NCBI RefSeq assembly: GCF_947623445.1
Contig: NC_135243.1
Span: 18,794,479 to 18,858,478 of the forward strand
Direction: 5' to 3'
Source of the DNA: Clavelina lepadiformis
Taxonomy: Eukaryota; Chordata; Ascidiacea; Aplousobranchia; Clavelinidae
Length of the DNA: 64,000 nt
Numbering within the stretch: the stretch's first letter is position 1; each line of letters starts with the position of its first letter. The notes under the pieces are model-generated. The model did no database searches. It had not been told where the DNA came from and was given only the letters and a program-made list of their open reading frames with translations. A program made the translations under genes and the position numbers. Positions 7,579-48,086 of the stretch are shown piece by piece.

Positions 7579-10163
7579 ATGGATTTTGTTATTGTAGCAG
7601 GGCTTATTATTTTGATTTCACAGAGTGTTTGTGTGAAATCACAACAAGGACAAACGACTGTGGTCGCAAAGTTTGAAGAATATGACATACTACCGATACG
7701 GTAAAACAACTGGATTTTAAAAGTCACTCTGCTTTAAACAAAGATACCTTCTTTTATTAGCTGCTTTATCATTTGTTATCTAATTTAGCAGCATGTTATG
7801 GGTTTGTTTTGAGATAGGCTTCAGATGTTGCACGTTAACGTTAATTTACTTTACAGTAAATACTGTCCCTTCGATCCTGACATCGACATCGAATACGACA
7901 AAATAACCCGCTGCATGCAAAACAACAAAATATTCAGTGACCATATCGAAACAAGAGATCATACCGGTCTTCTTCCGGCATACATTCCACCAAGGATGTG
8001 CACTAAAGATCCAGTTTGGCTGGATAAAAGTAAAACGGAAGTCAGTAGGTTGAGCCTCAGTCCTTGGAAATGGGTAAAGAACACAGATGAGAATAGGTAA
8101 AGCATTCAAAACGTAAAATATGTAGCAACATAATAATTAGGGCGATTCAAAGTCAATTTTTTTTATAAAGTCAATTTTTCTGTTATTAGGTCAATTTTTT
8201 GTTGTTAGGTCAAATTACGGTATTGCACATAATTTTGTTGCATAAGATTTTCTTAACACTTCGCTTTTCAATATTCCTGAAAAGAAGATTGTTGATAGGT
8301 ATAAAGTATTTGTTAAGATTTCTATGTTGGCCATGTTACCGCCATGTGCTTTCTTGGTTGTGCATAGAGGTGAGTTCTATAGTTGCAGAATTTCCAACAG
8401 AGTTCAGTAAAACTCCAACGAATGAACTTTTTTGCAATATTTGTAATTGTGTGGTTAAAGTGTGTTTGTTACTGTGTGACAAGCGATTTCTAGTTGACAG
8501 TCATAGACAAACAGCAAAGCATCGAAAAAGGTTACAGTCTTCAACTCCACCAAAATCTCAGTCTTTTTTTAAATCGGCTTCCACGGACTTTACTGAATCA
8601 GTGACCAGAGCTTTCTTGTCGGCAAACATACCATCAAAATAATTATAAAACAAAGAACTGAAAGAGCTTTTCAGAGGTATTGGGAAAAATTTACCATCAG
8701 AGTTATCGTGTCGTCGTAAAATTGTGGAAAGGAAATCAACAGAATAAAGCAAATGATGCACGAAAAGAAAATCTTTTTAGTAGCAGATGAAAGTGAGATA
8801 TCCGGAAGTAAATATTTCAATGTTCTTGCTGGAGTAACTTGATGACTCTGGCAAAACCTACATGTTAGATTGCAAAGCACTTACACTTCAATTACTGAGA
8901 AATAGATGTTGCCCTGCAATTTCTCAATGTTGGTAGAAACTACTTTTATTTACTTTTGTCTGATGCTGCCAGATACATGGAATCTGCAGGAAATGCTTTG
9001 AAAATCATGTATCCCCATCTTTTTCACGTCACTTGTGTGGCCCATCTTTTGCATAACTGAGCATCGCATGTAAGAGCTAATTTTCCCAAGGTTGACAATC
9101 TTACTGCTTGTGTATAAGGAGCCACAGTGAAAAACGACACAAGGCAGTTAATGTTTGACACAATTGGAATGCCACCACAGCCTATCATTACACGATGGGC
9201 AAGTTGGTTGCAAGCAGCGTTTTATTATGCTGACAATCTTCCTATTGTAAAAGATATTGTGTCAGAATTTGAAGGTTCTGAGCTTTTAGTAGAACGAGCT
9301 AAGGACAGTGTTATTGCAAAAGATCTTGCTCAAGACTTGTTGAAAATTAAAACGCAGCACTATAGTTTCGCTGGCTCAGTATTGAAAATGGAGGAAAAGA
9401 AATATACAATGAAAGCAGCTTATACTGATTTGACTAATCTTGACTTCGGTCACGACAGCTGTGGCACCGTAAATTGCGTAAACAAGGCTGAGAAAGAATG
9501 ATTTGACAGACTTAGTCAGCATGAACCGTCCGGAATTTGCTCCCTCTGTCTACGGCTTGCTACAAGGTTGCCAACCAACAACCGCTTCAGTGGAACGGAG
9601 TTTTTCAATGCTCAATAAGTTATTGGCCAATGACAGAAACTTCCTACCAGAAAATGTAAAATACTATATCTGTCAACATCACAACTTAAGTACTAAAAAA
9701 GTGAATTTTCTCTTTTTTCTTATATTCTAGTTCTTTTTTATATTTTGCTGAATAAGATCAACAAAATCAATTTTTTAACAAAATATAGTCAATTTTTAAA
9801 GTTTTTCAGGGTAATAAAGAATCGCCCTAATGATAACATATACAAAACATATTCACGCTTTCAGACTATTGACGTAACAACATTATGTTCATTAGCTTCG
9901 TACTGTTTAGTTATCACTGAAATTAAACGAGTTATTTATCGAAATATTGATTTTGTAGGGTTCCACGCCAGGTATTAGAAGCCGAATGTTTATGCAATTC
10001 GTGCCTGGACGAAGACGGAAAAGAGATGGATGGTGTGACAAGCGTCAGTGTAAAAGTACCTTACCGAGTAACAAAGTATGATCGCGGTGGGAAGGCGGTT
10101 GTTACATATGTGAATATTGCGATTGGATGCACTTGTCGGTTTCCAGAATATATTTCTGAGTAA
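7579..10163 (+). CDS. IL17: Interleukin-17 family cytokine (first copy)
   Basis: A secreted IL-17-type cystine-knot cytokine, which would act outside the cell on IL-17 receptors. Exons are 7579-7700, 7857-8096 and 9959-10163, with all introns in phase 2; they give 188 residues. Residues 1-21 form a hydrophobic signal peptide. The family signature is clear: SPWKW near residue 110, NTDENRVPRQVLEA, then CLCNSC at 131-136 and the closing GCTCRFP at 177-183, which are the conserved cysteines of the fold. Length fits the family. A TATA box lies 92 bp upstream, kappaB-like sites lie further upstream, and an AATAAA follows at 10298. Intron 2 is enlarged by a hAT transposon (8138-9829) read in the same direction. 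Coding parts show no damage. Confidence 0.93.
8138..9829 (+). mobile_element. Decayed hAT DNA transposon in IL-17 intron 2
   Basis: A 1692-bp element bounded by the inverted repeat TAGGGCGATTC / GAATCGCCCTA. Flanking 8-mers ATAATAAT and ATGATAAC agree at 6 of 8 bases, as expected for an old hAT target duplication. GTCAATTTTT-type motifs recur just inside both ends. Coding remnants run on the plus strand: a CxxC...HxxTxxH zinc finger near 8.43-8.53 kb resembling the CGGBP1 finger, catalytic-region pieces near 8.9-9.5 kb, and the hAT C-terminal dimerisation region near 9.5-9.7 kb (TTASVERSFSMLNKLLAND). The transposase frame is interrupted by several stops and frame changes between 8.64 and 9.13 kb and again near 9.5 kb, so the copy cannot make a full transposase. 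It lies wholly inside the intron and leaves the splice sites intact. Confidence 0.9.
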
Positions 10164-10297
10164 ATTTGTACGAAGCGATGTTAATCTTCACACCCTTCAC
10201 ATTTTTTTTTATGGAATTATAGTTTCATGATTATTGAATTGCGTTACTAATGCAAATTGATTACCTGTGGTATTATATACGATAATTTGCTGTAAAT

Positions 10298-10303
10298 AAT
10301 AAA
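10298..10303 (+). other. Polyadenylation signal AATAAA (IL-17)
   Basis: Canonical AATAAA 135 bp after the IL-17 stop codon, the first one on this strand, so it is the likely 3' end of the transcript. Confidence 0.55.
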
Positions 10304-12345
10304 TGCTTGATACTTGTCTTCAACTGTATCTTACATTCATTGCGTTTAAAGTTTACATGCTAGTTGAAAGTAGACCATGTGTTGCCCAAACTGAAATTTG
10401 AGAAGAAATAAATAAACCGATTTCATGTTTAAAAAGAAAACGGTTTGACGTCAAACAGCATGACCGATACGCTCAACTAAAAAGAAAAATATTTATCAAC
10501 TCGGTGGAGGTTGCAAACGCGTAAACACTTATCTTCAAATGCGAAAAACAGAAAAACATTTGAATTTTTTGTTCCAGAGAAAAAGTAAAAGAGTTTAAGA
10601 GTACATAGAGGAAGGCAATATTTGAATTGCTTGAGGAATAGGGATCTATTAATTACTATAAAAAATATATTATCACATGACTATCAAAGGAAGAAAATCA
10701 TAAATATCTTGATATAACCAACAGTGTATTGAAGCAAAAATGAAAATTTTTCGTCATTTCGCTTTGGCTGTAGTGTAAAATGCAGGATGCGCATGCAAGC
10801 TCAGATATTTGTAAGGAGAGAGGTTTTCAGAGAGGTTGTATTCGCATCTCACAAAGACTCTCGTGCAATATCAAGATGTCCATTAAACTGTGATCAGCTA
10901 ATAACTTAAAAACCGATAGCGCAGAATCCTGCAATAGGCCGAACCTGTCTCACATTTTTCAAGTGTGCTTGCTGCTCGCATGACGTGTTGCTTTATACGT
11001 TCGTGACATGGTACACTTTCAACAGGTATAGTAAGTCATTGCGTACTTACGAAAGTGTTTTCTTGTCAAATATTAATATTAAAAATTGTAAAATTTTCTT
11101 GAAAGTATGGGCTATGAACCACCACTTGATACTTTGTTTCATGGTTTTCTATTGGTGAAAAGTTTATCTTTTCGGTTGTGCTTACGTAGGTCATTCCATC
11201 AAACCAGCATGTGCGTAATTGGTTGATTGCAATATGCAGGCTCTGCGTCTGTCAGTGATGTGATAACTCTGTCTGACGTAAACAAGCAACGATCATTTCC
11301 TTAAACTTCCATACATCAAGCTATCGTCATTGTCAAGCGCTGTAAATTTCTTCGTGACGTCACAGTTTTGGAGTTAAAATCGTGAACTATTTTTGTAATT
11401 TCTTAACTACAGTATTATAATTTTTTGAAAAAATTCTTTCATCAATTTGTTCATTAATTAGTGGTGCTCTTTGATAAGAACTTAATTAAAAAACAACTTA
11501 TTTCTGCACAACAACCGACAGTACGGATGGTAAGGATAACATTGTTTAGATTGCTTTGATTAATCATGTATGACGATAATTTGAAAATATTTGGTGATTA
11601 ACGACGGCGACATAATTTTGCGTTTCATCTTACATAAATTGGGAATATTTTGTCATTTATAGATGCTTATAACTATATGTTAGCCTAACCAACAACTTGT
11701 ATGCACTTGCGCATCGTGAATTTTACCCAATGCACTACCGTATAGTATCCTATGATGCAATACCCTATACGAGGAGATTGCCTACGGTGGCAAACACGCC
11801 CGATTGGTTTGAACCTCATGATACACGAATAAAGATGACGTTATGGCGTCATAATGCGTTTATGTCACGTAGTACAACAAAACGATAAAGAAAAAACGTT
11901 CATCTAAAACGGTAAAGTGGAGACACAGAGGGTAGAATTTCAATATCTTACAAAACAAAAGTTTTCCAGAAAATAAAGCTTAACTCGAATATTTTTCGAA
12001 GACAAAATATAGATTTTTTCGGTTAAAGACGTGTAGCGATTGGTTTCGTGCTGGCATATTGCGTGCCTAACCCTATCCTACATCCTACAGCCATTACTTA
12101 TTTGAAAGCAGAAACATTTGCCATGCCAAACTGTAAACGGTTCTTATTACCGCCGCTTCAAAAAATGCTTTTTTGCTCTATCGCACAAAAATTGAGATAA
12201 AAAGTATTCCAGCAGAAATCATTAATCAGAATAATTGTAATTCCTTTTTTTCAAAAATTATTAGAGTTCATTTTACGATTGTTAGAATTGCATTTCGCAA
12301 TTGCTGCATAACTTTCTCACAGCTAAGAGTGGCTTAAGCATTAAA
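10304..12345. other. Intergenic stretch, nothing supported
   Basis: AT-rich sequence with no convincing exon. A 63-codon frame at 11697-11888 has no family likeness and is of a length expected by chance. The promoter of the next gene should lie at the right end, but I see no clear TATA box. Confidence 0.5.
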
Positions 12346-14462
12346 ATGAAATTTTTTGGTGTTGCACTTACACTCATCCTGTCTTGCTGTAATGCACAAA
12401 TCAGACGTCAAGCGACCTGCGAAATTGATGTTGAAGCTGGTGAAGTTGTTGCAGTTCTTCCAGGAAAACGGGGTCCTTCAGGTGCTCCTGGAATTAAAGG
12501 AACAAAGGGAGAGCCAGGGGACTGTAAAAAGTGGATTACAGCGGTTGAAAGCCTTGAGCAAAGGTTATCAGATTTGCAAAATGAACTTTGGATAAGAGGT
12601 AAAACTATTTTTTCGGAGTTAACATAAACCATATTTTACAATTTACAGTTTTTAAACGTTACAGTAAAGTAAGGCCTTCTAAAAATGTACCTCAGCAACG
12701 AACGTCAAGTAGCTTAAAATACTATTGCGCAATGGGAATCTGCTCAGAGCTACATTACAAACTATGGATCCAACCGCTTGAAACATGTCAATTAAAATTG
12801 GTTTCAAATAGCCTGGTAGCAAAAGCATTTCACTGTATTTTAACCGAATGGCAAAGGAATCTGAGTTTCATGGTGATTATAGATTGGTCGACATGGACTG
12901 CTTGGGGAGAGTGCTCTACTCAAAGAAGTTGCGGAATAGGAAGTCGATCTCGTTCTCGAACGTGCTTGTTTTCTCGAAATGGCGGTCCCTGCGAAGGGTC
13001 TGACGTTGAAACTGGAGAGTGTCGCGTTCCATCGTGTGATGGTAAGCAATGTTTTACAATCGCAAAAAAATTTTTGAAAACCTTTGCAGCACAGTGAGAA
13101 TATTTTTGTTGTAATACTGGATGACAATTAGAACCTATTTTAAATGGGAATAAAGACCTAACCAGAAGCAACTCACTTCTTTACAGTGTCAGTCAGACTT
13201 CTGAACGGTACATTTGGGCCAGTTTTCATATACGATGACAGTAATTCTGAGGCGCCAAAATGGAGGGGAGTGTGCGAGGTAATTTTAAGCTGTGATGACA
13301 GTAATACATAATGCGACATTTAAAGACGCATATATGCAACAATATGTTGTTTCTTTATTGATAAAAAGCGCTTTTGTGGATATTATCACTTTTATTAAAA
13401 GTAAATTTCTGAAAAATACCTTATTCAGTATTTTATATTTTGTTTTAAATGTTTATGTTTTCCTTTTTTTATTTCGAAATTAGCTTTTTAAGCAACTTTT
13501 TCGAAAAAAGTGGCAGTAGAAAAACAATTCTGAACTCTAATTTCTTCATTTAAATAGTGTTATATTTGTTTTTGCTGCTTTATTTGCAGTATCAAAGTTT
13601 AAGTTTAGCTGAAAAAACTGGTATCCTGAAAACAGTTTGCAGAAGCAAAGATCTTTCACTGGCGTATATTCGTCCCATTGTAAACAAACTCTTTACCGAC
13701 CAGGTAGACTGCCATTTACGTTAGTATTCTTATATTCCATGCACGAATACTTCATGTTTCTCTTTAAGTGGGCGACATTGTTTACAGATTTATTTGAGCC
13801 CAAAACGTTGTAGCGACAACGAGGACCACTTGATGCAGTGTGAGCATGATGGATGGAAATATCATATTGACTGTCGGCGCCAGCTGCAAGTGTTTTGTAC
13901 TGGTACGTGTCATTCTAAAGAACTAAATCTACAGACATTGGTTCGGTATGGCGGGGTAAGGCTGCAGGTTCGAAACCAATTTTGATTTCATAATTACAGC
14001 TTTGTACCGTTATTTTCACTCAGATGTACAACACTTCCATCTCCCCAGCAATCAAGTAACTTGGACCATTGTAAAGCTATTTTGTGAAAGCTTAGGTCGA
14101 CGAATGTGCTCAATAACCGAGATATTTCCATTTAATGACAGAGTTCCTATCATCACCGGAATTATTCCTGGTGATCATTGGGCTCCAATAAGGTAACAAA
14201 TTAATGCCTTTATTTAGCGACATAACGAGAAAAAATAATAGTCTTAACTATCTTAGTTATTGCATTTTTACTATTTCTTGTTGGAAGTTTTACTGAATAC
14301 ATATTTCTCGGCAGTGGAGAAGAGAAAGATTGGGTTCAAGTTGGAAGTAGCCGAAACTTCAACGGCTTAACCCATTCTGAGACTCACAGCTTTGGCGTTC
14401 CAACATGGGGAGAAGTGATAAGCAATCGTCCGTATAGAGGCAATTTCTACTGTTGCCTGTAG
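12346..14462 (+). CDS. Secreted collagen-stalk / TSP1 / SRCR-like protein
   Basis: Seven exons (12346-12598, 12883-13041, 13187-13278, 13590-13703, 13788-13902, 14000-14192, 14315-14462) agree in phase and give 357 residues. In order: signal peptide (1-17), six collagen triplets at 40-59 (GKR GPS GAP GIK GTK GEP), a short coiled-coil-like stretch (65-81), a thrombospondin type 1 repeat (85-138; WSTWTAWGEC, CGIGSRSRSRTC) on one phase 1-1 exon, an SRCR-like domain (139-245; VRLLNG, TVCRS, CSDNEDHLMQC, final FC), and a C-terminal domain (246-357) with the spaced pattern FCESLGRRMCS, HWAP, WVQVG, WG and FYCC. The layout suggests an oligomeric extracellular recognition or matrix protein. I cannot name the last domain; similar W/C-rich ends occur in other marine invertebrate secreted proteins as I recall. 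Function is inferred from domains only. Confidence 0.85.
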
Positions 14463-15338
14463 CCGGTCATATCAACAGATTTATGAATTCTTGTTTCCCC
14501 GTGGAAATCCATATGTAAAAACGTCTCACACAACTCTTGCAGATTACTTAAGAAATTAATTTTATTTGGATTAGATGTTTATAGGGGAATTTCCTGTAGC
14601 TATATTTTGTACAAATTATTGTGCATTTGTATGTTTTTTATCTTTGTTTGCTATGAACTATTGTACTTGTGAATGTTGTTTAATATATGCAGTACAACCA
14701 ACGCATAAAATGTAATCAAGCAAATTAACAAGTTATGCATTATGAAACTCGAGTAGGTAATATCCTATAATCATATTTTACCAGTAAAGCGTTACAATAA
14801 ACAAGGACTGTGAGATTACATATATCAACTAAATCTATTCCAAGTAGTTTGAAAAACACAATGACATATCTATATGAGTATACGTAACAGGTACATGATA
14901 TCGTTATCTGATTTTATTCTCCTTCATTATAGGCTACTGGAATGTATTTCAAACAAGAAAAATAAGCGATGTATATATTTCACCATCAAATTAATTGCAT
15001 CCTTTTCAGACGCAATTTGTTTACAGAATAAGTGATCTTCAAATGCATATCAGTGAACATAAAGTACTTTGCAAGAATGTAATTTAGTGATTGTGTTTAC
15101 TGTAATTACAGTGAATCATTGAATTGCTGATCCCTGTTCTGTTCTTGCACTCATGCAGAACATGATCCAGCTTTGAAGTTAAAGTAGAGATATAGGCCCA
15201 CACATGAACAACTGTACATGTTTGTGTTTAATAAATGCAGTATTTCTGGAGCTGAACAAGAAAAATTAAAGAAATAACTATTGCAGTTTTATGGCCAAGT
15301 AAATTTCAAGATGAATGAGAATTTGAAGAAATTCAAAA
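14463..15338. other. 3' UTR and intergenic, no gene
   Basis: Contains the likely 3' end of the upstream gene (AATAAA at 14796-14801) and AT-rich spacer. No exon is supported. Confidence 0.5.
14584..14594. promoter_or_regulatory. kappaB-like site GGGGAATTTCC
   Basis: A close match to the NF-kappaB consensus, 122 bp after the stop codon of the collagen/TSP1/SRCR gene and probably inside its 3' untranslated region (AATAAA at 14796-14801). Possibly chance. Confidence 0.2.
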
Positions 15339-16097
15339 ATGTCAGGCAATTACAGTGACGTGGTCTTCCTTGATGTGACTAACTCATCGAAGTTGGTTGC
15401 GTTTAATGAAAGTTACATGCATCAAGGACGTCCCCACAACAACATTCGCTCAGCTGAAGAACTTCTAATTATCTTGCTGATGATCAAAAGCGTTTTTCTA
15501 ATGAGTGCTGCTCTGGTATATCAGAGTAAATTTGGAACGTCCAACTTAAAAGTTAAAAACATCGTTTGTACTATCCCAGCACTATCCTTATTGCTCAAAC
15601 CACCGATCTTTGAAGTCGAGAATCACGCAAGAGACCCAAAGCGATTCGTTATGCAGAATCTTCTTATGCACCTATTTTGTATTGGCAGTTTCAGATAAGA
15701 TGTTTGTATACATGCTTATATATACGTGCTATGGATTCCCGTCTACAAACGTGGTTCTATGTCTCATGTGCGCTCAGGCTTGATGCAGATAGTAGCCAAA
15801 GGCATAATGATTGAAATTACTGTACTAGCCATACTTGAAGCTATTTTGATGGCAATTCAGCCAACGGAAGGAATCTTCTACGTTGGCATCATTAACTGCT
15901 TCGGTACAATCGTCAGCACTGTAGCTCTCAGTATGTCGTTTGCTGATTGCACACAAAAGTTTGCCCATATCTGCTCTAGAATACCGCCCCATGCGAAACA
16001 CAACGTGTGCCAGTTCTGGACGACAACACGACCTAGCGGCTGCTTCACCTTTGCCCCGATATCCGTCCATATGGCCGACAAACTACCTGACTCATAA
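15339..16097 (+). pseudogene. Decayed seven-pass membrane protein gene (paralogue of 19825-21889)
   Basis: Two frames resemble the two ends of the intact gene at 19825-21889. The first (15339-15698) starts with ATG, carries an N-glycosylation-type NYS near its start, and matches membrane passes 1-3 (for example NLKVKNIVCTIPALSLLLKP against KLKRTNVMCLVSTLLLLFES). It ends in a stop with no splice donor. The second (from about 15726) matches passes 6-7, including the shared SFAD motif after the last pass. About 80-100 residues corresponding to passes 4-5 and the paralogue's intron are absent, with only about 30 bp between the frames and no splice sites. The simplest reading is an internal deletion that made a pseudogene. 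A short product with three passes cannot be excluded. Confidence 0.7.
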
Positions 16098-17314: not shown

Positions 17315-18406
17315 ATGACGGATACAATGCTTGGTCGAATGTGCTTGATTTTTTGGCCAGAGCTCGATGAGAAAAAACGTGTCGACTTACTGGCAACTGT
17401 AATGTTAGATTGGGCATTAATAACTCCTCTGGTCATTATGGGTGGATTGCTGCCTTATGGAAGGTATACTTATCGCCAAAAGATGGTATATGTTGACTCT
17501 AAAATAGGATGGGTTTTGCAGGTAATGTCCAGGGCAACGACCCCATGCATGCAATAATTACTGCCTTATAGCAAAATTTTAGAAAACAAAAAGTTTTAGC
17601 AAAAAATACACTATAAAATTGTCCAACATATATTGCAGTTTGCTAGTTCACGAAAAGTTTGTTTTTGTTTCAGGAGTCTCCGTCGTTTTTGATTCCACTA
17701 CACGCTGTCTGGACTGCTCGGAACAATCTTCCGTCTCTACCTGCCCTTATTCTTTTGGCCGCTTTCCTTATTCACTACGGATACCGTGTGCTGGTGTATA
17801 GTTTGAAAATTAGAGGAGGAAAACCATCCCCTCTTTCTTTTGTTTTTTTAGCAGCTTTGTTCTGTGCATGCAACGGTTACATGCAGGTAATAAGCGTTTA
17901 CAAAAGTGAAAATGTTACTATAGCTATATATTATACGTGTGAAAGATGTTAAAACGTTTTTAACTTTAAGGTTTAAACAGCGATTTACTTCAAGCAAATA
18001 AGCGTTTTAATCATTACAGGCAAATTTTCTTTTACACTACTCGTCCTATCCTATGTCGTGGATGACCGAATGGAACTTCATGGTTGGAATTGTTTTGTTT
18101 GCGATTGGGCTTTACACAAACATACGCTGCGACAATATTTTGCGAAACTTGAGAAAACCGGGTGAAACTGGTTACAAAATACCACGTGGCTGGGTCTTTG
18201 ACTACGTCTCGGGTGGAAATTATTTTGGAGAATCATTAGAATGGACTGGCTGGGCTTTGGCGTGCTGGTCAGTGCAAGGCTTTTCTTTTGCTGTATTTGC
18301 TACAACGTTTTTGTTATGTAGAAGCGTTGAACATCACAAATGGTATCATTCGAACTTTCGTACGTATCCCAAAGATAGGAAAATCTTCATTCCGTTTGTG
18401 TGGTAA
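17315..18406 (+). CDS. SRD5A: 3-oxo-5-alpha-steroid 4-dehydrogenase (steroid 5-alpha-reductase)
   Basis: An ER membrane enzyme that reduces the 4,5 double bond of 3-oxo-4-ene steroids with NADPH. Exons 17315-17521, 17674-17886 and 18020-18406, all phase 0, give 268 residues, close to the roughly 255-260 of vertebrate type 1 and 2 enzymes. Several hydrophobic segments are spread over the length. The active-site Gln-Glu pair of the family is present as Q69-E70, split exactly by intron 1, followed by SPSF as in the vertebrate proteins. The conserved HYGYR (active-site tyrosine), GYKIPRG, YVSGGNYFGE, EWTGWALA, HHKWY and final IPFVW motifs are all present. AATAAA follows at 18548. No damage is seen. 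Closest to types 1/2 rather than type 3 by these motifs. Confidence 0.95.
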
Positions 18407-18553: not shown

Positions 18554-19824
18554 ATTGAGACATCCATTACATATGAGCTTTATTACATCGGTTTTGCAAA
18601 AAAACTATAAAACAAACCCAAACTATAAAAATATGCACATTTTTAACCTTTTATGTGGAAAGCTATGCTAACAACACGATAAAAATTGTAAAAATACTAG
18701 TTACTAATTACTAATTCATTGGATTGCATGTACATATTGTTGAAGGTGATAAGATGTCTTTACACATGTAGAAGACTTTTTGACAATATATACAACAAAG
18801 ACAAGCATAACCCCTAGTTCTTTTCCATGTGGTTCTTGAAACTTGGTGTGTTGCTTGTTGCAAAACTTGGTCAGTTGTGGGAAACGTAGTTGGGCTGAAA
18901 ATTAAAAGTTAAACTATTTTGAGTTTAGCCGGCAAGCAAAAATATTTAGGCTATAAGCCCGGCGACTTCCAGGCGCTTAAAAGCGGTTTCATCTTTGTAG
19001 CAAGAATGCAACTTTGCACCAAGATTTCTATTCGGTTGATTTTATTCACGCTTGACTGGCTACGCAAATGGCATTTTCTCATGAAGACTGCCTTGAACTT
19101 TTCTGAGAAGTTGTAACCAAACATACTTAAGGCAGACATGTCTCTAATCGTCACTGCAACGTTTTTACGCCGTATAGCGTTCAAATGGCTGCAGCCAATA
19201 TCTTACAACGGAAATGCTTTGGCATATTTCACTCGTTTTCTACACACGCACATTTTATACTCTTGCGATAATGACTGTTGCGAAATCTTGCGAACTAATT
19301 TTGAGGTCAATTTTTGAAAAGTTGATTTACAGAGTAAACAAAGATAAGCATCGGGCATGCGATTTAGTACTGCACAATTTCCTCGTGTAAGCCCCCGAAG
19401 CAACAACGATTTCGCGAAATACTCGCTATTAGTTTCATCAGCAGCATGGGTCTAAGTCTGAGCAAGTGTTTAGTTAGACAAATGTTTCAAGTAGGCAAGG
19501 CTAGGCAATTTTCATTTTCAGTAGTGACTTAATAAAGAAAATATGTTAACTAATTGTGAATTTGCAAATCAATTTTATAAAATATGCATGACTACATTGT
19601 CTTAAAAATAAACAACACTGATGACAAGTTTTCTCGTCTTCATAGATTAGCTAGGCTACTGTAGAAGTCAAGTAAGCCTTATAAAACTGAACAGCTGCTG
19701 GTAAAATTAAATTTGGACTTACTGTAAATAAAGGAACGTAGATCAGTAAGAGTAATTGCTAAGAAATTTTGTCCTGCAATTAAACGTTGGATGTTGTTTG
19801 AAAAGGAATTAATACAGAGTCGAC
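18554..19824. other. Intergenic stretch
   Basis: No supported exon. Overlapping frames on both strands near 18.92-19.18 kb are open but show no splice-site logic or family motif. A weak 3' splice-like site (aatacag) sits 7 bp before the next gene's start codon. Confidence 0.45.
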
Positions 19825-21889
19825 ATGGAACACGAAACTGTCACCAGCATCAACTCAAACTTCCCAGTACATTCGATTTACTACACGAATAATAGTTACA
19901 ATACAGCGTCAAGTAAGAATGGCAGCCAGGTCTGGTCGACACAGGGTATACCCGAAAAGTCGTCTATCAGCAAGCGATCGGAATTTGCCATGGCCGGGCT
20001 ATTATCATGTTTTAGCCTTTATCTGGTCGGCGTAACTGTCTGGTACAACGTCAAGCATTTTCAGAAAAAACTAAAGCGAACAAATGTAATGTGTTTGGTG
20101 TCAACCTTGCTACTGCTTTTCGAAAGTTGTTGGTTCCAGCTGGAAATACAGATGAAGGATGCTCAAGATTCATTTTGCACTGTTTATTCCGTAACCAACG
20201 TTTTCATTTCCACAATCAACAAAACTATAATCTATGTCATTTTTTGGATGAGGCAGAGCTCTTTCTACAGAACTCGGGCACTGAGCTCTATCGGCCCCAA
20301 GAAATTTGCCATCCTTAACAAAAGCTTGATAGCAGCAATCATTGTTTTTGCTATGACACAAATAACTGTTTTAAGTTGCATTCCATTGTATGGAACCGAT
20401 AACGGATGCAAGTACGGGAAGCCAACAGGATTTCTTAAGATATTTTCCGTGGCTGTGTTTACTATCATAACCCTTTTTCAGGTAAGGTTAAAATCAGAAT
20501 TATTTCTACAGAATTTCTTTTAGGTATAGTTTGTCAGTTATCTATCAATTATATGGTCATATTTGGTTGTAACAAACAAATGAAACAAGATTATTTTTAA
20601 TAACATTTATGTTCAAAAAAACGTTGAAGAACCTGTTTTGCAAATGTAGCCTATACCAACATTTTCAGAGATATTGTAACGTAAAGTAATAATTTTTCCC
20701 TGACAATTGATGATCTGCATTAGAGACACTTGAAAATTAGTTTCAGCGTCCCCCCGTTCTATGCAAAATCATTTTAAGCTTTCAAAAGATTTCTTGTAAA
20801 AGGTAGTATTATTCTGACCAATTATAAGAATTACTAATAAAACGCATTATTTATAAAATTAAATAATGATTAGAATAAAAGTTTTTTGCAAGTAACAATT
20901 TTAATAATTAACAAAGTGCATGTGATTCTGGAAAATTAATTCGCGCAACATAAGCCTATTTAATTATTTATAGTTTTGCTTAAAAATATAGCGTTCTTTC
21001 AATAAACATACGCGTATATAGGGTATACAACATATCGACGTTTTAAAGCATTTATAATAATTACTAAAAGAGATATAATAAGAATTTCCAAGAAATTCTA
21101 ATGTACACTTTCTTCAGAAAACGTATAAACGCCTCTGAAAGTAATAATTTTGAACTACAAACACAAAGTTATAGTCAAATATACTTTTTTATCTTGAATC
21201 ATTTATCTTAGATGGTATGTTCCTATAGCTATATTAGATAACTTTAATTAAGTTGCAATTTGCAAAGAAAAGTTACACTTTATCCAAACATTCCGGATCA
21301 GGCAACACGATATTCAAACTACAGTATCGGGTTCCGATAAAGTTCATGTACAAATAAACACCGACATATTTTGAGGAACTGCTTGTCGTGGCTTTGGCCG
21401 GTTGGCGTGGAACAAAAAAAAATGTCGACATTTTCAGCTTGCGCAAACCTTTTATAACTTATTCAACAAACTAACTCGAATTCAGGCAACCATATATCAA
21501 ATAAATTTTCTGATACCATTTTTCAGATATTTCTACTAATTCCCATTCTATACCCGATTGTGAAACACTTAAAGGCAGCCGGAAAACTACAATCAAATTC
21601 CAGATTGGGGTCCGTCATGATACGTCTCTGCGTCTGTACAGCTATTTGTGTGATTACCGACATTATTTTCGTAGGCGTAATAGCCCAACAACACGACAAT
21701 TTAATGCCGTTTAGTTTTATTCCAATCTGTTATTCCTTTAACATGTTTATTAACGTCGTGTGTATGATCGTCTCCTTCGCTGATTACAAAATTCGTTTCT
21801 TTCCTTTCCTTAAATCCAAGGTTACTCCAACTCCTGGGCAAAGCCAGCAAATGTGCGTTTATAAGATCCACGCCACATCTGCTGTTTAA
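19825..21889 (+). CDS. Seven-pass membrane receptor-like protein, unassigned family
   Basis: Two exons (19825-20481 and 21527-21889) joined in phase 0 across a 1045-bp intron give 339 residues. The N-terminal 50 residues are polar with N-glycosylation sites (NNS, NGS). Seven hydrophobic segments follow, at about 52-74, 90-110, 123-145, 165-188, 203-228, 248-270 and 280-305, then a short polar tail. A basic FW-M-RQ-SSFYR motif follows the third pass. This topology is that of a receptor, but I see no rhodopsin-type DRY or NPxxY motif and cannot place it in a named GPCR class. It is related to the decayed gene at 15339-16097, with the SRD5A gene between them. A tunicate-expanded receptor family is an inference. 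Confidence 0.8.
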
Positions 21890-28200: not shown

Positions 28201-30068
28201 CGTATGTACAACGAACTCAAGTTCCTCAGTTAAGTCAGTTAGTCTTCTTCCAACTGTTACTTTAAGAAAGTATCTGCGAACCAAAATGCTGTGTATGAAG
28301 AAGTGCGTACTAATGAAAGATTTTAACAGAGATACACAAATGCACTCGAATCATATTCCACATTCAATGTGACAGAAAACTCCTCGCATGCATTTCACCC
28401 ACTTTTGATGTGAAATCAATTCTTTAAAAGTCTGAGTAATTAAATTTTGTATTATACATTTATTTTAACATATGTATAAGATATGTTAAAGCAAAATTTA
28501 AATTATACTAACCTTACTCAGGACATTTTTTTATAAAGACTGGTACGGCTTTTTATAAAGCTTAACAATTTCTAAAATATTAATGAGCAACAACCAACCT
28601 CAGTCGTACATTACTGCCGAAGTAGGACTCGTACGGCTTTTCAACATGAGGAAATTCAAAGGAGAAAACTTTGCTCTGCATCAAGGACCCAGGACTGGCA
28701 AGTTGTTTAGTTAAGGTGGTGAAATCATGCACATTTGTTCGATCATATAAGATTTCTATAACAAACGTATAACAAAGAGGAAAGCTGGAAGCAGGATTAC
28801 GAACAAAGTGTCAAAAAAATCACCAATTTCAGCTGCAATTTATCTTAGTTTTAAACTAAAATCACAAATTAGCCACAACTGCGTAGTTGAAACTATTATT
28901 AGTTATTGCATGGTTTGGATTAAGGGAAATATGTTTAAAACATTTTAGAAAACTATTGCAGATATAACTACGAAGTTATACTTCAGTGAAATTAGTTGTT
29001 GTCAATGCCAAAGATCTCTCATGTTTCTCAGTAAGATCTTGTAATAAGTTGTGGAAGTTGTAAAAATTTCACAACAAACAAAATACACTGTTATTTTATG
29101 TTCACCTATTTGTCCTATCAGTTCCACTTTGATTCCTTTGTGGTCCAGTTTTGCACCAGATTTAAGGTTGACGCTCACTGCTCCAGAAACTGTCTCTCCA
29201 TCGTAATAAATACACATTTCAGAGCTCTTGCTGTCTGACACTTTATGACGAACCTTTTTTCTAAAAAAGTGGGACACAAAGGTTGTCATTCTTTGCTGAT
29301 CCTAATGTTATTCCCTTTTGTCAGTTATACACAATTTGTATTAATATATGTCTCTTTCTATATCAATGGTACTGGTACTGCAAATATACATACACAGATA
29401 CACCATATATACACATGATATAACACCTAAATTATAAATATCAATATTGTGAAGTTTACCGACTCATTCCTGCAATCTTAAGCTTAGCAAAACAACACAT
29501 CAAAAACATAATAAGAAAACAAATATGAGCTTCTGTAAAGTAGGAAAATATTTCAACATTCCTTGATCTTGGCAGAAAACATATGATGGTAGACCTTGAA
29601 AAATCTATCTAATTCAAGAAAAGTTAATATTAAGCTAAATTAAATGACTAATCAAACTGACTTATATTATTATGTTGGCATGTATGTTAAGCTTTGTTTA
29701 ATAATAAAATAATATAATTATAAAATAATAGGCTATATTAATGATAATAACACTAACTTACACTTGTTAACATAAAAACACTAATAGAAATTCGTGAGAG
29801 CATAAGTATTAAATATACCGATATACTAATATACTAATTTTATAACAATGCTGTATGTCACAAAGAACATAGACCACTGTAAACTGAGTAAGCACTAGTA
29901 CTTTTATAAAAATATTAACTTTTCTTCTTAACAAGCTAGTAGCTACGAGAAAATGTACCAGATGTTAAAATTGCAATAATACTTCAAACAAAAAATGCCA
30001 TACCTTTTGTCTGATCCATCTAGCAGTATTTCCACAGACTCTATCGCTCCGTATCCAAAAAAGTTCAT
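25211..30068 (-). CDS. VPS26: VPS26 retromer subunit
   Basis: An arrestin-fold subunit of retromer, which recycles receptors from endosomes to the Golgi or plasma membrane. Seven exons on the minus strand (30004-30068, 29106-29260, 28599-28755, 28109-28273, 26286-26461, 25383-25525, 25211-25297) agree in phase and give 315 residues. Signatures run in order: MNFFGYG start, IYYDGETVSG, GIKVELIGQIE, FEFPHVEKPYESY, VVHTLSTYPE, MEVGIEDCLHIEFEYNK, GKIYFLLVRVKIKHME, ESIPIRLFLAGYELTP and ILWRKGD. The acidic tail of vertebrate VPS26 is replaced by a short basic/acidic end of about 20 residues. Intron 6's donor (caa|gtttgt) is unusual but needed by the frame. Introns 4 and 5 carry hAT insertions. A 3' splice-like site lies 9 nt before the ATG. 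Confidence 0.95.
25654..26095. mobile_element. Non-autonomous hAT element in VPS26 intron 5
   Basis: A 442-bp element with 15-bp inverted ends, CAGGGGTGTCCAACC and its complement, and a perfect 8-bp target duplication CCGTATAC on both sides (25646-25653 and 26096-26103). The CAGGGGTGTCCAA end is typical of MER5/Charlie-like hAT elements. No transposase is coded inside. The intact duplication suggests a fairly recent insertion. Confidence 0.92.
27047..28055 (-). mobile_element. Internally deleted hAT (ZBED-like transposase) in VPS26 intron 4
   Basis: A 1009-bp element with 15-bp inverted ends CAGTGTTTCTCAACC and a perfect 8-bp target duplication CACTAGTT (27039-27046 and 28056-28063). Remnants of a transposase of the ZBED5/SCAND3-like hAT type run on the minus strand. 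There is a catalytic-region piece (VCADGAPSIMGSKKGF, near 27.5-27.7 kb) and the C-terminal dimerisation region (LPVPTTYLCEAGFSTLA, near 27.22-27.45 kb). The N-terminal half and the middle are missing and the two pieces lie in different frames, so it is non-autonomous. Short GCGGACTC motifs repeat near the right end. Confidence 0.93.
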
Positions 30069-30076
30069 CTTTGCCT

Positions 30077-35830: not shown

Positions 35831-38800
35831 TCACATACGCGCGAGATAAACGTGACCACTAGATGGGTTATTGCGCTGAAACTCTTGTAAATGGCACCTT
35901 GTCGAAGTTACGCAAGTTTCTTCGGACACAGTTGTAACAGAATGACAAGATGAAAGGTTATGGTGTCTCTTGGTTAATGAGTTTTGACTGAACCATTCTG
36001 GAAAGTGTTCTGGATGTTGACGATAAACCATTGCTGTTATTATGACGATGATGATGATCACTCCAATAGACACCAGTACACCCAAAACAATATACTCAGT
36101 TTTGATACCTTCTGCTAAAACAAAATATGGATTATTGTTTGGAACTGTATTAATAATGCATCAAGCTTAATAGTTTGAAAGCCGAATTAAACTACATTAG
36201 ACATGGTTATAAGCACCAGAAGCGTGGTCTCTTTGTCTAACTTATAATAAACCGAACCAAGTAAAAAAGAAACTAAACTACATAAAAACTCGCCTTTTCT
36301 TCTGCTATTAATTTCCTGTTTAAGTTTGTTCTGCGAAATCTTTCGAAATGTTTCGTTTTCCTTGATCGTAAATGTATCTGGAAACATTGGTAAGGTTTCT
36401 TTGTCGGTTAAAAAAAATGGCCCGATTGTAAGCCGAACATCGGAGGAGATTGTTTCATTCTTAGTAGAACGACGTTCACGGTTTTCAAAGTCGGAAACAT
36501 TTTGCAAACATGCTGGTCTGCAGAGCTGCAAAGAAGTATGTGTGCTGTTGAAGGCTAATTAATAAAAGTACCTGTTTTACACACTCTAGATGCCCGAAGA
36601 GTACATCATCACTTTCACACTATGTCTCGTTCCATTCTATGATTGTTAAAGGCCATAACCGTACTTACGTTACAGGAAAGTAATTCAAACGCAGTTAAAA
36701 CTTTAACCCTAAATTATCACCGTTCAACAAAGCATTGAAACACACAAAACATACTTCGTCAAATCTAGTTACATTGCATATACTGACTATGCAATGCAAA
36801 TAGACTGGGTCGTCAGGGTTGTGGGTCCACAAAAACAACTGAAAAGAGAACCGGGCGCGGTTGCTACTTCCACTCTCCTCGATGGTGACCGAAGGATCGA
36901 ATTCGTTCGCGCAGCTATACGTAAATATAAGATATCTGTCACAAAATTCCATATGTATATTTCCAATAAAACATAAGTGGTCTAAGGATGCTAAAAGGAA
37001 TTGTAAAAGTCTCCAAAGGAAACCCAATAATACATTTATATGCGTAAGGTATTGTAACATCTAACCAGCTGCAGTTTTTACAGTTGACAGTAAAGCCTTA
37101 CCCGTCATTTAAAAGGGAATGTGTAAAAAGCGGATTTTCCTGTGTCGGATTTGCTCCATTACTTGCCCTGCAAGACTGCAAGCTTACGACAAGATCAACG
37201 TGTGAGGAACTTATCAAAGAGATTTTAGCGTACACACGTTGCCCCGAAACTAGTAGGCTGTTTTGGGGCTGAAGCACCGACTGATCGTCGAATTGGGGCT
37301 TTGCATATAATTTCATGTCCAAGGTAAATTTTCCATAACCCACCTCAACTTCTGGACGGCTGAAAAGCATGAATAAGTAAAATTACCACAAGTATAACAA
37401 GGCCATAAATAAGAAAGATCTAAATGTTTTCTTGTATTTCATGAAAGTTTTATAAACGTTTTACAAACAGTGTCGTGAAAAAAGATCATATTGGTCATGT
37501 AAAGGTCAAATTATAATCGACTAATCGCATTTGGGTGAGTTTAATTCCTCAAATGTTTTGCTTCATAACATATTTCACGTTTGGGGCAAATATAAATTTG
37601 AGCAGCGAAATTCTGACCATCGCTATTGTGCAATGACTCACGTAGTTATCGTCAACTGTTAACACAATGGCGCTTTCACAACTAACGGCCGCAAATTAAA
37701 TTACCGACGTCATATCGCGATTCCATCAACCAATATCTCAAACCATAGCAGATTACTACAAACTTGTTACTGGGTATGGAATCATAGCTTCATGTTTGTG
37801 CACAACAACTGATGATTAATGACCTTTCCATGTATACGGTGTTCAGAAAAGGTTTATTGTGATAAACTGCTTTATACTGTTGAAATGGAGTTCGCTAACC
37901 AACGTGGTCTTAACAACCTCATAAAATAATAAACTACAACAACGTATTTTGTTCGCGGCAGTAAAACAATTTCCTTCCAAAGGGTGTCAGGCACAAAATC
38001 GCCCGAAAGCATTAAAACGAATCATCAGAAACTGACAAGACAAACAAAAAGACGTGCATAACCCAAACAAATTTCTGACGGAGCATGGGAAAACCTGCAA
38101 AGCGTCACTGTTTGTTTTAAGGTTAAAACATTTATAGACAATGACGTTTCTCGCTCTAGGCAGGAACATATTACTTTTGCAATCAAGCTTGCAATAAGAA
38201 GCCTTACTTTTCTACCCCAGTAATGCCATCTTCGAATGATATGTTGTATTTAGATGGATACACGCAAGTCCAGTCGAGTAGTACAGTAAGCTCTCTGTTG
38301 CCCATTGACGTGTTTCGCGTCGTGTCTAAGTACAAGCGGTTGTGGTAAACGTAGTTAGCGTCTTCCTGAATAAAACATTAAAACATACGATAGCGAGTAC
38401 GCACACGTTTCTATCGATCTAAAATTGTTTCTAAACTGTACACAGTCAGCTTCACAGTGACTGCGCTGATATTTGCATCTATATATGAAATCCAAAGTAT
38501 TTACATGGAGGATTATTCAAGTAATTGAATTTTATTGTATGTCATAAAAGCAAACCGATTGCATCGTAGTCCCACAGCCCACAAAAGGTTGCTTCAGGGT
38601 AACGACGAGGTTGTCTCCTTTGTCCTCAGAGATGCAGTCTGTCTGGGTGAAACCTCCGTGCCCAAGGTAGACAAAATTACGATCGACAAATTCCACTTCT
38701 TGAATTATCAAAGATTTCATCACGGTAAGGATAATGTTCTTTCCCAAGCAATCTACGTCTGGCAGTCCTACAAAAAATTGTCGTTACAGATTTTTGGTAT

Positions 38801-41804: not shown

Positions 41805-41914
41805 GACTTGAGTTGACTCGAGTCGCTTGTACTAAAAGACTTGACTTGAGTCTTAAAAGGTAAATGACTTGACTTGAATTACGAATCGAGTTCGATGACT
41901 TGGTTACAACTCTA
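41805..41914. repeat. GACTTGAGTC-type repeat, probable DNA-transposon relic
   Basis: A run of GACTTGAG, GACTCGAGTC and ACTTGACTTGA words ends in GGTTACAACTCTA. Similar sequence words are, as I recall, common in dispersed repeats of aquatic animals. No matching opposite end or target duplication was found. Confidence 0.45.
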
Positions 41915-42568: not shown

Positions 42569-42703
42569 AAAAGGTCCCTGTGGAGCAGCATCCCAAACTC
42601 CTCCCACATACTGGAAGAGTGCCCGTTCTTAGGTCCGCCTTGCTCTCTCGCTGTCTTGGACAGTCCTTCTCTGCAAAACTATCTTAGTACATGCGATTTT
42701 TAA
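42569..42703 (+). mobile_element. Possible LINE relic (C-terminal tail of a reverse transcriptase ORF)
   Basis: A short frame in a GC-richer patch reads SSHILEECPFLGPPCSLAVL and ends in a stop 44 codons on. The H-x-L-x-E-C-P pattern is common at the C-terminal end of LINE polyproteins. Nothing else of a LINE is visible around it, so at most a small relic remains. Low certainty. Confidence 0.3.
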
Positions 42704-45700
42704 CTTGCGCATTGTACCATATTTCTCGATACGAATATATGTAAATATATATAAGAAGGTCAAGTACGAAGATTCTCTTCAAGTTAACCTGTTATAACTA
42801 TACTTTTACTTAAGTGGTTACATAATCTTCAAAGCAAGTAAGCAACTTCATCCTGTCCAAACATCTATCTATGTTAACAAACAAACGTAAAAAACAAACC
42901 TATAGATTTTTAAAATGCAGCTTATCGTAAATCGTAAGAGTTACACAAACATGTTACTGAAATTGTACGACCTTTTAAAACAGGCACTGCTAGAATCGTT
43001 ATCGCAATGACATAGCGCCAGCTAACGACAGATTCCTTGCCTTTAGACTGTTTAAAGTATCCTGAAAAATACTGATTTACAAGTTGTGAGATTTTTTTGA
43101 ACTTAAATAAGTAACCTTTTTTGGCAAATTTATTTGACTTTACTCTAAACATGTTAATTTTCTGGAGATCTATTTGCAAATTTTTTTGAGGCACACAATT
43201 GTCTTCTGATGCTCTATGTTCACTTATGCCATGGTCAACTGTTTTAACTAAATGAAACAATTATAGTTTTCCTTCTATCCGCAACTATGGCTTACAAAGT
43301 GTTATCGTTCATATTTTCTATAAGTATACATAATTGGTATAATGAAAACCTTATACTGCAGCATAAAACGTGTTAAATGGTGGCCATTATATCATATTTC
43401 TAAGTTTGCAAACTTTAGCGCATAAAAACACTGGTGTATTGAAGGGGGATCACCGTCCCTTACTTTTTCTTGCTTCGTTTCATTTTATCCCCATTTTTAT
43501 ATACATTTGGAATTCCTGTGCACCGTAAACCGCAAGACAATAAAATGGCGGCGGTTGGTCATTTCCCTTTGTTGGTATATTACCACAAGGCTGGTTGGCC
43601 ATCTCTCCGGATCAGTCATTTACCTCCTTCTTTGGAATTACCCTACTAGCAAGCATAGCAAAAATCGTAATTTTGGAAACGTTTTTTCCAAAACAAATGT
43701 GCATAATATTACTTTTTATACGGTTTTACTGTGTTCATTTGTCACCAAATATCATGTTTGGTGATTCTTTGTGTATTAACCATGCTGACAGGCGTGTTAA
43801 TGTAGCACTGCACTTTGAAATGTTTTAAGCGTATATTAAGATGTATTCCACCCAGAGTGCTGCGGCCATTCTTGTACACAATGTGTGACTGCATGTTTGG
43901 TATCAATATAATTTATCGATATGCCATCTGTGACTCCTTTCATTGATTTTAGTAAGTTTTCTACACACGTACATGGTTTACGTTTCCGTTACCTACAACT
44001 CTCCTGAGGCATGTTATGCTGTCGCCAACTTCCAATCTCACACCTTAGTTATAGTTGATTACGCTGTGATTTTGTGGACAAGAGTTTTACTTTTTATTCT
44101 ACGTTTTGTTCTCTGTAAGATGGACTGGTGTTTGTATTGGTGAATAATGAGGAACATTGTTTTTATTGCGCATCAGTGAAGAAATTAAAAACTATTAAAA
44201 GTTCGAAGAGCAAACGTTGACTATGTGACGAGCCTTATAAGCGAGGAGAGCCAGGAAAGGAGAATTTAGCGTGACGCATTCACCTAATTTTAAACTTTTG
44301 TATCTACGGGATTTATGCGGGGTGGCAGTTTACTGGAAGACCCAGATCCGGTTATAACCGCAAAAAAAGGAAGAAAACAAACTTGCTTTGATAAAACCTA
44401 AAACCAAATTTGTCCAGTTCCTAGTTGGATGGTTTAATGCGAGTTCAAACGAAGCAATCTCATATTACAACGAGGTATTAATACGAGATAGTAATTATTT
44501 GTTTTTTGTGATTACGGTTTAACCAAATTTTTGGTCTCATTGTTGTCAAAATTACCGTTCTGCCAGAGCATATCTATATTAATATGTATTTGATGCTGAG
44601 TCAAATTCGCCAAAACGTGAAACAAGTTTGATATTTTGACTCAGAATTTGTAACTTTTGTCAGACAAGTATGTCAACTTCAATAACGTGGTGTTTTGCAA
44701 AGAGAAACATTTTGGATTAATTTTACTTGTAAGGCTTTATTGGCAGTTGTGTAGCGGGTTGATGTTTTATTTTTCCTTGCATTTATCTTTCTTTTTCGCT
44801 CGCTGCTGTGACAAGAAGAAGAAAAAGGAAGATAAAAGTTATAGACAGAAATTATTATCGATAAAATGAGATTGCGAGAAGCGTGTGAAAGCGACCGATA
44901 GAAGCACCTTGCGGCATTTCCCGGAACAGTTATGCTATATCAAATGATTTGCATGGAATTCAAACCGAAAACATATAGTCCACCACGTTCTGTGGTTAAA
45001 AAAATTCCGCCAGCAACCGTGCGTAATAATAGCATGGGCGGCACCATGGGCAAAAATTATTAATGTTACGCACGATTTACGATATGTAAAGAGATAGTGA
45101 AAAGGCCTTTAAACAATCTTTCACAAACACAAACAAACCGCATATCCCCTACTTCTAACACGTGCGGCTCGCCAGTAAAATTTAGCAAATTGATTTGTGA
45201 AAAATGGAAAGTGAATTTTATCTGAAAGATTTTACGCTATTTTCACCCGAAAAATATGACTAACCTAAGATGATCGACGATAGCAAGCACAGTTTTTTTT
45301 GTATTATTGCAGCTTTGCAAAAGTCTGTTTATTTTTTTACTCAAAAAAATGTTGGACTTGATATTGGGCTTTTCATGAAAATGTTTCATGACAAAGATTT
45401 CTTTAGTTTATTTGATTCAACAAAGCGTTTATGGCAGCGTTTTTGTGAAGGGGTCGAAGGTCGGGGGACTAGAAGCTGTCAATCATTTGCAAGATGAGTT
45501 GCATGACTTAGTAAACTCATCTTTGAACTTAAATCTATCAATTCAAAACATTATCGGACGATGATTGCATCACTTAACGAGTTAAACTGCTCTGTATTAC
45601 TTACATTAGTGGATTACGTCAAAGGTCTCCTTGCAAATGCTTGTGCAAGGAAAATAAATGGGTTTAGATAAAGGAAATCTGTATGTATTAAATGTAAACT

Positions 45701-46311
45701 TTAAGTTAAAATTCCCCTTCAAGGTAAAGTCTCACTCTCGCTCTCCAACTATCTATACTCTGCACTGGTTTCAAAATGAACAATGCACTTAAACAATAAC
45801 TTAGGGCATTTCATATATTATCTTTTGAAAACGAAAGCTGCATGAATACATTTTATACAAGACGATAAATAAATAACATATTTTCACTCGAAGCTGTGCA
45901 GGAAAGTGTAGTGCACACGATTTATGTACTAGAATTGATAAACAACACATTTTAAAGTTGTTCAGACGAATCGATTTTAACGTTGAAACATAAAAAACAT
46001 TGTTTACACACGGAAAAAACACAAATACTTAATAAAAAATAAAGATAAATAAAAGTATTAAAAATCCCAGCGACCAATTTGAGAACAAAATCATTTATAA
46101 AACTAATAAAAGTATCGTCCATTACAAATTGCAAAAGCTGAATGCGTTTTGTCAACATGATTCTGTGTGAAAAGGTTGATGCTTATGGTTGTAATAAACA
46201 TTGGAAGTCTACAAACGTTTATAAATACAACAAACAAATATCCACTAAAGTCGATGTGATTGATATAAGTTAATAGTTAACAAAAATTGTGCGATTGATT
46301 GATATGAGCGA

Positions 46312-48086
46312 TTACTTCTTATACTGTTCTTTAACACAGATGCATCCAACATTTATTTTTTCGTGTTCTATTGTGGTTGTTGAATTGACCGTTACGGTAA
46401 AAGGAAAATTAATTTTCACAGGCTCGCTCAAATACCCGGGCATCTCCTTATAAACACCATCGTCATCATCTAGTTGAACACATTTCTTACAAATACAGCA
46501 TGCTCGGTGAATGATTTTGGGAGTCCTGGTACGGTTTGTTTCTTTTCTACAAAAATAAATACGATTTAGAAAAGAAGATAGCACCTAACATTTTTCAACA
46601 TCTAAAGTAAAAGTTCCACAACTTGGAACCCTTGAGCTATTGTTAAGTACTGCCTCACGCCAAACTCAACGACGCTTGTCATCGTATTCGCAGACAATGG
46701 TTTTTAAGGCATTTTAACGGACAACAATGGTCTCTTAATTTTTTTCCAGTAGTGTCTAAAACTTGACTGCAACTGACAGCTATTTTTGCATACTCAGATA
46801 AAATGACAGTGGTTTGTTAAAATGTCTTCGGTGCCGTTATAATTCAACATTGAAACTGCTCAGGCCAAAGGTGCATCATATCATCTCATTTGTCATTTTT
46901 AAATTTTTCCGGGTATTAATTTGGTACATTAGATAGATTAGCAAAACAAATGTAACAAATCATGTTTGGCATTACAAAGATTTACTTACATCAAAATCCA
47001 TGGTGAAGTACTGAGAAAATTTCCTGGATGTTTGGAGTGATTTTCACGAGAACACTGACTTTGCACATCGCAACTTTCTGCCTATAATTTTTAATAAACG
47101 TTAATAAATTGAAGGCATAAAAACGCGATGCTGCATGTTAAAATACAGTTTTCCAGCAAGTATTTCGTTTAAATAACAGCATAGTAACACAGCTAAATCA
47201 CGTACATCTTCCACAATCTTAGAAAACGCCTGTGTTCGGTTCATGTTCTCATGTAGATTTTTATGAAGCCTGAAAAAGAGTTTATTGCAGTTTAGCATTT
47301 GAATCCTACTGTCAAAATTTCACTCCAAATCATCTATCACATCCGGGGAATCCCGGTATTAGCAAGCACACTCTTCTACAGTGAACGTGATACCATCAGT
47401 TACATAACACCTCATAAATCATTAACTTTTATGTCAACAAAAGTTCGAAGAATCTTTAAATTTTTTATGTAAATTTTAGTATTTCGAAAATTACGTCTAT
47501 TTGAAAATAAAATATGCATACTTAAAGCATTGAAACAGGAACTACGACCAAATAATCGCTATTTGAAAAAATAAAAGTACAATTAGGTTTGGTAAACGTG
47601 CAACAAAAATAACATTGTGTTTATTTGCACGTGATACTTTCAGGAACTATGATTCTGTTAATAATTAACTTTTCGGCGTAGTTTGACCAACTAAATACAA
47701 TAAGCTTCTACGGCCTAAACTTGCAAACAGATCAGAAACCTAAACAAAATGGCGCGAGATCAAAGATTTATAAAGAAGTATTATTCAATTTACTTTTGAA
47801 GAGATTACCTGGTATAGCCTATATTGGAAGCATGATCAAATGCTTGCAACATTTTGTAATAAATGGTCACAAATACTACTGCACTTAAGAAAACTTAAAA
47901 AAGATAAAAAGCATGATGCTTTGCCTACCTAGGCCTGGCTGTCAAAGTTGGAGATTCATCAGGTGCAATGGTCGTGTGAAATGGTGAAGGCTTGGCGGGA
48001 AATCCAGAGACCGCTCGCGCTAGTAACAAACTTGCGAATGAGAAGCAGACTGCTGATATCTGCACGATAATTGTAAATGTGTTCAT
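46312..48086 (-). CDS. IL17: Interleukin-17 family cytokine (second copy)
   Basis: Four exons on the minus strand (47929-48086, 47206-47269, 46990-47081, 46312-46546) agree in phase and give 182 residues. A long hydrophobic N-terminus (about 1-28) is a signal peptide. The family signature is SPWIL at 100-104, RTRTPKIIHRACCICKKC at 110-127 and the closing GCICV at 172-176. N-glycosylation-type sites (NHS, NST) are present. Compared with the first IL-17 it lies on the other strand and has one more exon. Its phase 2 intron falls right after SPWIL, whereas the first gene's falls about eight residues later, so the two are not a recent copy of each other. A kappaB-like site lies in intron 1. Confidence 0.93.
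47345..47354. promoter_or_regulatory. kappaB-like site GGGGAATCCC in IL-17 intron 1
   Basis: The same ten bases as the sites at 6050 and 6262 upstream of the first IL-17. Here it sits in intron 1 of the second IL-17, where it could act as an intronic enhancer element. Inference from motif and position. Confidence 0.3.

Follow-up and report, generated by a model that had tools for sequence, protein, structure and literature searches.

Two diverged IL-17 genes of the ascidian Clavelina lepadiformis and the displaced last intron of one of them

Two genes of one cytokine family that lie in one region on opposite strands and differ in exon number and in the site of an intron raise the question whether they are old paralogues, the outcome of a local duplication or unrelated arrivals. 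Such a pair, here called A and B, is located in a stretch of 64,000 nucleotides from the ascidian Clavelina lepadiformis (contig NC_135243.1, positions 18,794,479 to 18,858,478; hereafter the window). The window lies on contig C4 of the genome that was searched (209 Mb, 95 contigs), and the two interleukin-17 (IL-17) genes, A on the plus and B on the minus strand, are about 36 kb apart. Tentatively, and with less than even confidence, we regard B as an old, fast-evolving paralogue whose last intron lies in the region that seems to hold the last intron of vertebrate IL-17A/F genes, and A as a representative of the main class of the family.

A and B within the IL-17 family

The gene models are predictions, spliced by hand at GT/AG sites. 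Gene A starts with the ATG at position 7579 and comprises three exons encoding 188 amino acids, with both introns in phase 2. Gene B starts with the ATG at position 48086 and comprises four exons encoding 182 amino acids, with introns in phases 2, 0 and 2 (Table 1). Both proteins matched the Pfam family IL17 (PF06083), A with 73.2 bits and B with 47.2 bits, the latter obtained with a first model of 179 amino acids, three residues shorter. These scores are above the curated cut-off of 24, so that family membership is not due to chance, and a chance match was rejected. No family besides IL17 was found in either protein in Pfam at E up to 0.1. The motifs SPW, CxCxxC and GCxC follow each other in this order in both proteins, whose N-termini are hydrophobic as judged by eye. 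These data bear out most of what had been proposed from the nucleotides alone (the sequence-only reading): two IL-17 genes on opposite strands at the two ends of the region, each with SPW, CxC-x-x-C and a closing GCxC, composed of three and four exons and separated by unrelated genes. The intervening genes were seen here as TSP1, steroid 5-alpha-reductase-like, ZP and Vps26 frames.

IL-17 proteins are summarized in PMC8353272 and PMC4517768 as cystine-knot cytokines whose dimers act on receptors with a cytoplasmic SEFIR domain. Most likely, the products of A and B would likewise be small, secreted cystine-knot proteins acting as dimers via SEFIR-bearing IL-17 receptors; secretion, dimerization and signalling are what we infer from the families concerned.

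An IL17 profile search of the whole genome gave 12 matches on five chromosomes, all of them over the cut-off: A and B on contig C4, three genes on C9, four on C7, two on C2 and one on C3. Single-protein genome searches with B and A, carried to E up to 10, revealed no further IL-17 locus. A and B belong to an ascidian IL-17 cytokine family of 12 genes. Splice models were made for all of these; the weakest point among them is intron 1 of the C3 gene. There are two exons in the four C7 genes, three in A and six others and four in B, and exon number is therefore a weak argument on kinship. According to the surveys in PMC8353272 and PMC4517768, Ciona has three to seven IL-17 genes and intron numbers vary among invertebrate IL-17 genes; a second IL-17 gene with a different exon count is thus ordinary. 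The same holds for the layout of the pair. C9a and C9b, 94.7% identical, are about 43 kb apart and C7c and C7d, 91% identical, about 15 kb apart, in both cases on opposite strands, which shows that opposite strands and distances of tens of kb are ordinary for IL-17 duplicates in this genome.

The four two-exon genes of contig C7 (18.065-18.088 Mb) carry SPY or SPF where the others have SPW, together with an additional cysteine pair, and C7d has GFHC in place of GCxC. In two domain trees of 14 rows they were, weakly, the nearest to human IL-17A/F.

Position of the last intron

In 11 of the 12 genes, A included, the last intron is located ten codons after SP[WYF], in phase 2 and just before x-Pro; the codon that it cuts is Arg in nine of them and Leu in two. 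In B alone it follows the Trp by three codons, again in phase 2 and exactly 21 nt upstream of the site in the other 11 genes. The linker from SP[WYF] to Pro comprises 11 residues in all 12 genes, so that the shift in B amounts to seven codons (21 nt) without any gap. A phase 2 intron near SPW at different sites in A and B had been noted before; the displacement and the common phase stand, the distance is seven codons and not about eight. The anomaly is that of B against the 11 other family members, of which A is a typical one.

As a consequence of the shift, exon 4 of B starts with seven extra residues, KETNRTR. This peptide was scored against the other 11 genes; of 2894 stop-free 7-mers derived from introns, only 8 reached its value (5 of 150 when Arg-ending 7-mers were considered, 86 of 2894 when only the first six residues were compared). 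The background was taken from 18 family introns, leaving out those of C9b, the first of the C3 gene and the transposon in that of A. The score of 5.1 is low for a real linker, the values being 4.3 for C9a/b and 9.0-17.1 for the remaining genes. Since KETNRTR resembles the family linker, inheritance of its codons is probable, and it would be the intron that changed place. On either side of the shift the linker motif is preserved, which likewise argues for a moved intron rather than for an intron turned into exon. Conversion of intron sequence into exon by boundary sliding in B, followed by selection on the new residues, is less likely. The site would have been relocated relative to the coding sequence either by loss and gain of an intron or by a slide that kept the codons. 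Other genomic copies of introns 2 and 3 of B were not found (intron 1 was not searched), so that nothing points to a mobile intron of recent date. Direct repeats of at least 30 nt were absent from 7000-11000 and from 45500-49000 when each region was searched against itself.

The site in B was compared with that of vertebrate IL-17A/F genes. Their third exon is given as 217-247 bp, four-exon genes aside, in the ranges of PMC8276262, and protein lengths and domain starts by species were taken from the table in PMC4517768. The position of the last intron was calculated from these values for nine IL-17A/F rows (zebrafish, medaka, chicken and human), presuming one common phase 2 site and a domain that begins six residues before the Trp. 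With these published ranges, offsets of two to five codons after the Trp fitted all nine rows. Offset 3, that of B, fitted nine of nine and offset 10, that of A, five of nine, with human and chicken just reaching the minimum of 217 bp at offset 10. Allowing three residues of slack for all nine rows raised the upper offset to 8, addition of two fugu genes left the range at 2-5, and two genes of Xenopus tropicalis fitted both 3 and 10. The coding exons of human IL17A, which we take to be 27, 203 and 238 bases long, would give an offset of exactly 3. Together, the calculation suggests that the last intron of vertebrate IL-17A/F genes lies two to five codons after the Trp, like that of B and, chiefly on account of a single zebrafish gene, unlike that of A at +10. 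The vertebrate genes also have the SPW, R-x-P and GCxC core in common with A and B, whereas their first exon, only 9-39 bp long according to PMC8276262, places the first intron well ahead of its position in A and B.

Ciona intestinalis has, according to the table in PMC4517768, four IL-17 genes with two introns and one IL-17D-like gene of 179 amino acids with four introns, and two structural classes may therefore be old in ascidians. Judged by this table only, IL-17-1, -2, -3 and 203738 resemble A in having two introns; they are on one chromosome, in contrast to the 12 genes on five chromosomes in Clavelina. By the same tabulated data, the IL-17D-like protein XP_004227512.1 (179 amino acids, domain 96-173) is near B in size and layout, with four introns as against three in B. 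In the literature, no title on IL-17 in Clavelina was found among papers naming both Clavelina and interleukin, and no title concerning the position of this intron among the matches listed for IL-17 with the SPW motif or intron phase.

Kinship and origin of B

In the IL-17 domain A and B are 34-37% identical, compared with 91-95% in the fresh copies of this genome (C9a/b and C7c/d). A fresh tandem copy is rejected by this comparison, in agreement with the sequence-only reading. Trees were calculated for eight combinations of data and model, i.e. the domain of the 12 proteins (75-93 columns for the domain sets), the domain of 14 proteins including human IL-17A and IL-17F, the part after residue 22 of the 12 and the post-linker part of the 14, each with two models. 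In every tree B had the longest end branch (2.6-4.5 changes per column), and in the four free trees with 14 rows it was not joined directly to human IL-17A/F. The approximately unbiased (AU) tests rejected no grouping that was tried, on either side of the question (p 0.09-0.55); the short IL-17 proteins thus do not decide the kinship of the two genes.

A serious competitor to great age of B, which we likewise put somewhat below an even chance, is a local origin: B would be a diverged duplicate of A, or of the ancestor of A, on chromosome 4, whose last intron was shifted upstream by 21 nt and which gained one intron, and its likeness to the vertebrate site would be coincidence or miscalculation. 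Several observations point in this direction and weigh against an old paralogue. The best genomic match of B in BLASTP was A with 50.4 bits, followed by 35.0 bits for the next one, and the stretch DG..KEM.G..S..VK is common to A and B. The two were sisters in six of the eight sets, with weak support (bootstrap 59-86, Shimodaira-Hasegawa-like approximate likelihood ratio test 84-88), and in one of the sets without the linker a tree in which A and B were held together surpassed the free tree by 0.69 log units. The grouping of the 11 genes as a clade versus B with human IL-17A/F was neither backed nor rejected (AU test, p 0.10-0.49). Furthermore, the vertebrate site was worked out from published ranges and not read from sequence; in these ranges, offsets 2-9 fit when zebrafish A/F2 is omitted, and 10 as well with one residue of slack, and one Xenopus tropicalis gene, which has a long tail, is compatible with neither 3 nor 10. 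Local pairing is also seen elsewhere in the family: IL-17 genes next to each other on C2 and on C7, as well as the two close ones on C9, are mutual best matches within their own clusters, opposite-strand pairs included, and the long end branch of B would suit a fast local duplicate. On the other side, the two sets without linker columns gave free trees that keep A and B apart, A itself has its best match in C9c on another chromosome (72.0 bits, 106 over the full length), and a local origin requires an intron move within one local pair. As the best match of B and the sister trees speak for a local origin of B, confidence in the old paralogue stays under one half. An old paralogue with a vertebrate-like site and a fast local duplicate carry nearly equal weight, the former being slightly favoured. 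Of the two origins put forward in the sequence-only reading, that of old paralogues is thus favoured by the intron site of B and opposed, weakly, by most of the sequence trees.

A more specific form of the old-paralogue reading, in which B keeps the intron site of vertebrate IL-17A/F by descent and the other 11 genes stem from a radiation within tunicates, with a single intron move as its mark, is in our view doubtful. The age of B and the direction of the shift are both points that we infer, and the evidence on direction is divided: the majority of 11 genes suggests that B is the derived one, while some of the evidence from outside this genome points the opposite way. It is improbable that B is simply mis-modelled, with the true acceptor at the AG 21 nt downstream, the site of the other 11 genes, and with seven residues fewer. 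An in-frame AG is present exactly there (ACCAG/GACTCCC, the slash marking the alternative splice site), but the pyrimidine tract of the upstream acceptor (TATTTTTGTAG) is the better one, only this acceptor gives B the linker of 11 residues found in all 12 genes, and the seven residues fit the family profile. The other proposal of the sequence-only reading, that A and B are unrelated arrivals in one region by independent transposition or transfer, might draw on their low identity, their opposite strands and the transposon remnant in intron 2 of A. However, the remnant lies wholly inside this intron, motifs and intron phase are common to both genes, and each finds its best links within the genome. 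Because both belong to one 12-gene family and the best genomic match of B is A, this proposal did not gain support, and we regard it as very improbable. The old paralogue with a vertebrate-like last intron remains the reading that we slightly prefer.

Neighbouring features, receptor-like genes and possible use of the intron site

The coordinates of A, B and further features are compiled in Table 1. The remnant in intron 2 of A is that of a broken DNA transposon and looks hAT-like by eye. Its first 236 and last 300 bases match other places in the genome (76-97%) among the matches listed, and no match elsewhere to its middle part was seen among the best 40 of 107 candidates. Retroelement pieces are present at 868-2996 on the minus strand (integrase zinc-binding and core domains and a CCHC zinc knuckle). 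Three open frames on the plus strand (15327-15698, 19813-20523 and 21458-21889) have a membrane-spanning look by eye; Pfam yielded nothing for them at E up to 0.01, and they are perhaps two tandem receptor-like genes. A search of an IL-17F fragment against plasmids yielded a single, meaningless match.

Table 1. Positions of A, B and other features; window coordinates unless a contig is named
Feature	Position	Strand	Remarks
Gene A exon 1	7579..7700	+	Start codon, hydrophobic leader; donor phase 2
Gene A exon 2	7857..8096	+	...SPWKWVKNTDEN(R); last intron cuts Arg codon AG/G, phase 2, Trp+10 codons
Transposon remnant in gene A intron 2	8133..9834	+	16-nt inverted end repeats (94%), broken frames
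Gene A exon 3	9959..10163	+	VPRQVLEAECLCNSC...GCTCRFPEYISE; cysteine-rich C-terminal part of IL-17 domain
TSP1 domain frame	12603-13097	+	Pfam; collagen-like stretch just upstream under cut-off
Steroid 5-alpha-reductase-like frame	18011-18406	+	Pfam
Vps26 piece	29002-29301	-	Pfam
ZP-domain frames	36695-37382	-	Pfam
Gene B exon 4	46312..46546	-	KETNRTRTPKIIHRACCICKKC...GCICVKEQYKK
Gene B last intron	46547..46989	-	443 nt, GTAAGT...TTTTTGTAG; no other genomic copy found
Gene B exon 3	46990..47081	-	...STSPWIL(I); last intron cuts codon Trp+3 (AT/A), phase 2
Gene B exon 2	47206..47269	-	Followed by phase 0 intron absent from other 11 models
Gene B exon 1	47929..48086	-	Start codon, hydrophobic leader; donor phase 2
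Receptor-like genes	C3:19.49-19.51 Mb, C3:20.26-20.27 Mb, C1:23.37 Mb, C4:3.72 Mb		Open frames

The genome contains at least 17 SEFIR matches. Thirteen IL-17-receptor-like genes (nine on C3, three on C1, one on C4) combine SEFIR with a preceding hydrophobic segment, each in one open frame that is 395-832 residues long. Nine of these frames were submitted to Pfam; SEFIR was over the cut-off in each, and receptor fibronectin-like domain 1 was matched in five, two of them over the cut-off. Three receptor-like genes on C3 with short ectodomains may have an upstream exon. Elsewhere, receptor genes have 10-18 exons in snakehead and up to 11 in mussel. The sea urchin, also an invertebrate deuterostome with an expanded ligand set, has 35 ligand genes and two receptors of 16-17 exons (PMC5457136), as against 12 ligands and 13 single-frame receptor-like genes in Clavelina.

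The site of the last intron is a discrete character with two states across the 12 genes, available where trees of the short domain fail, and one of its states is possibly shared with vertebrates. A few more tunicate genomes and that of amphioxus could be scored for it. If B is not an old paralogue, it is a fast-evolving duplicate of the ordinary kind, whose intron has moved. If it is, the site would separate old lineages of chordate IL-17 and would show an ascidian gene comparable to mammalian IL-17A/F. Should B have kept the site by descent, the intron would be a rare marker by which the IL-17 genes of chordates can be assigned to deep lineages that the sequences fail to resolve, and this in an animal whose IL-17 receptor genes, with coding frames free of introns, have multiplied as well.

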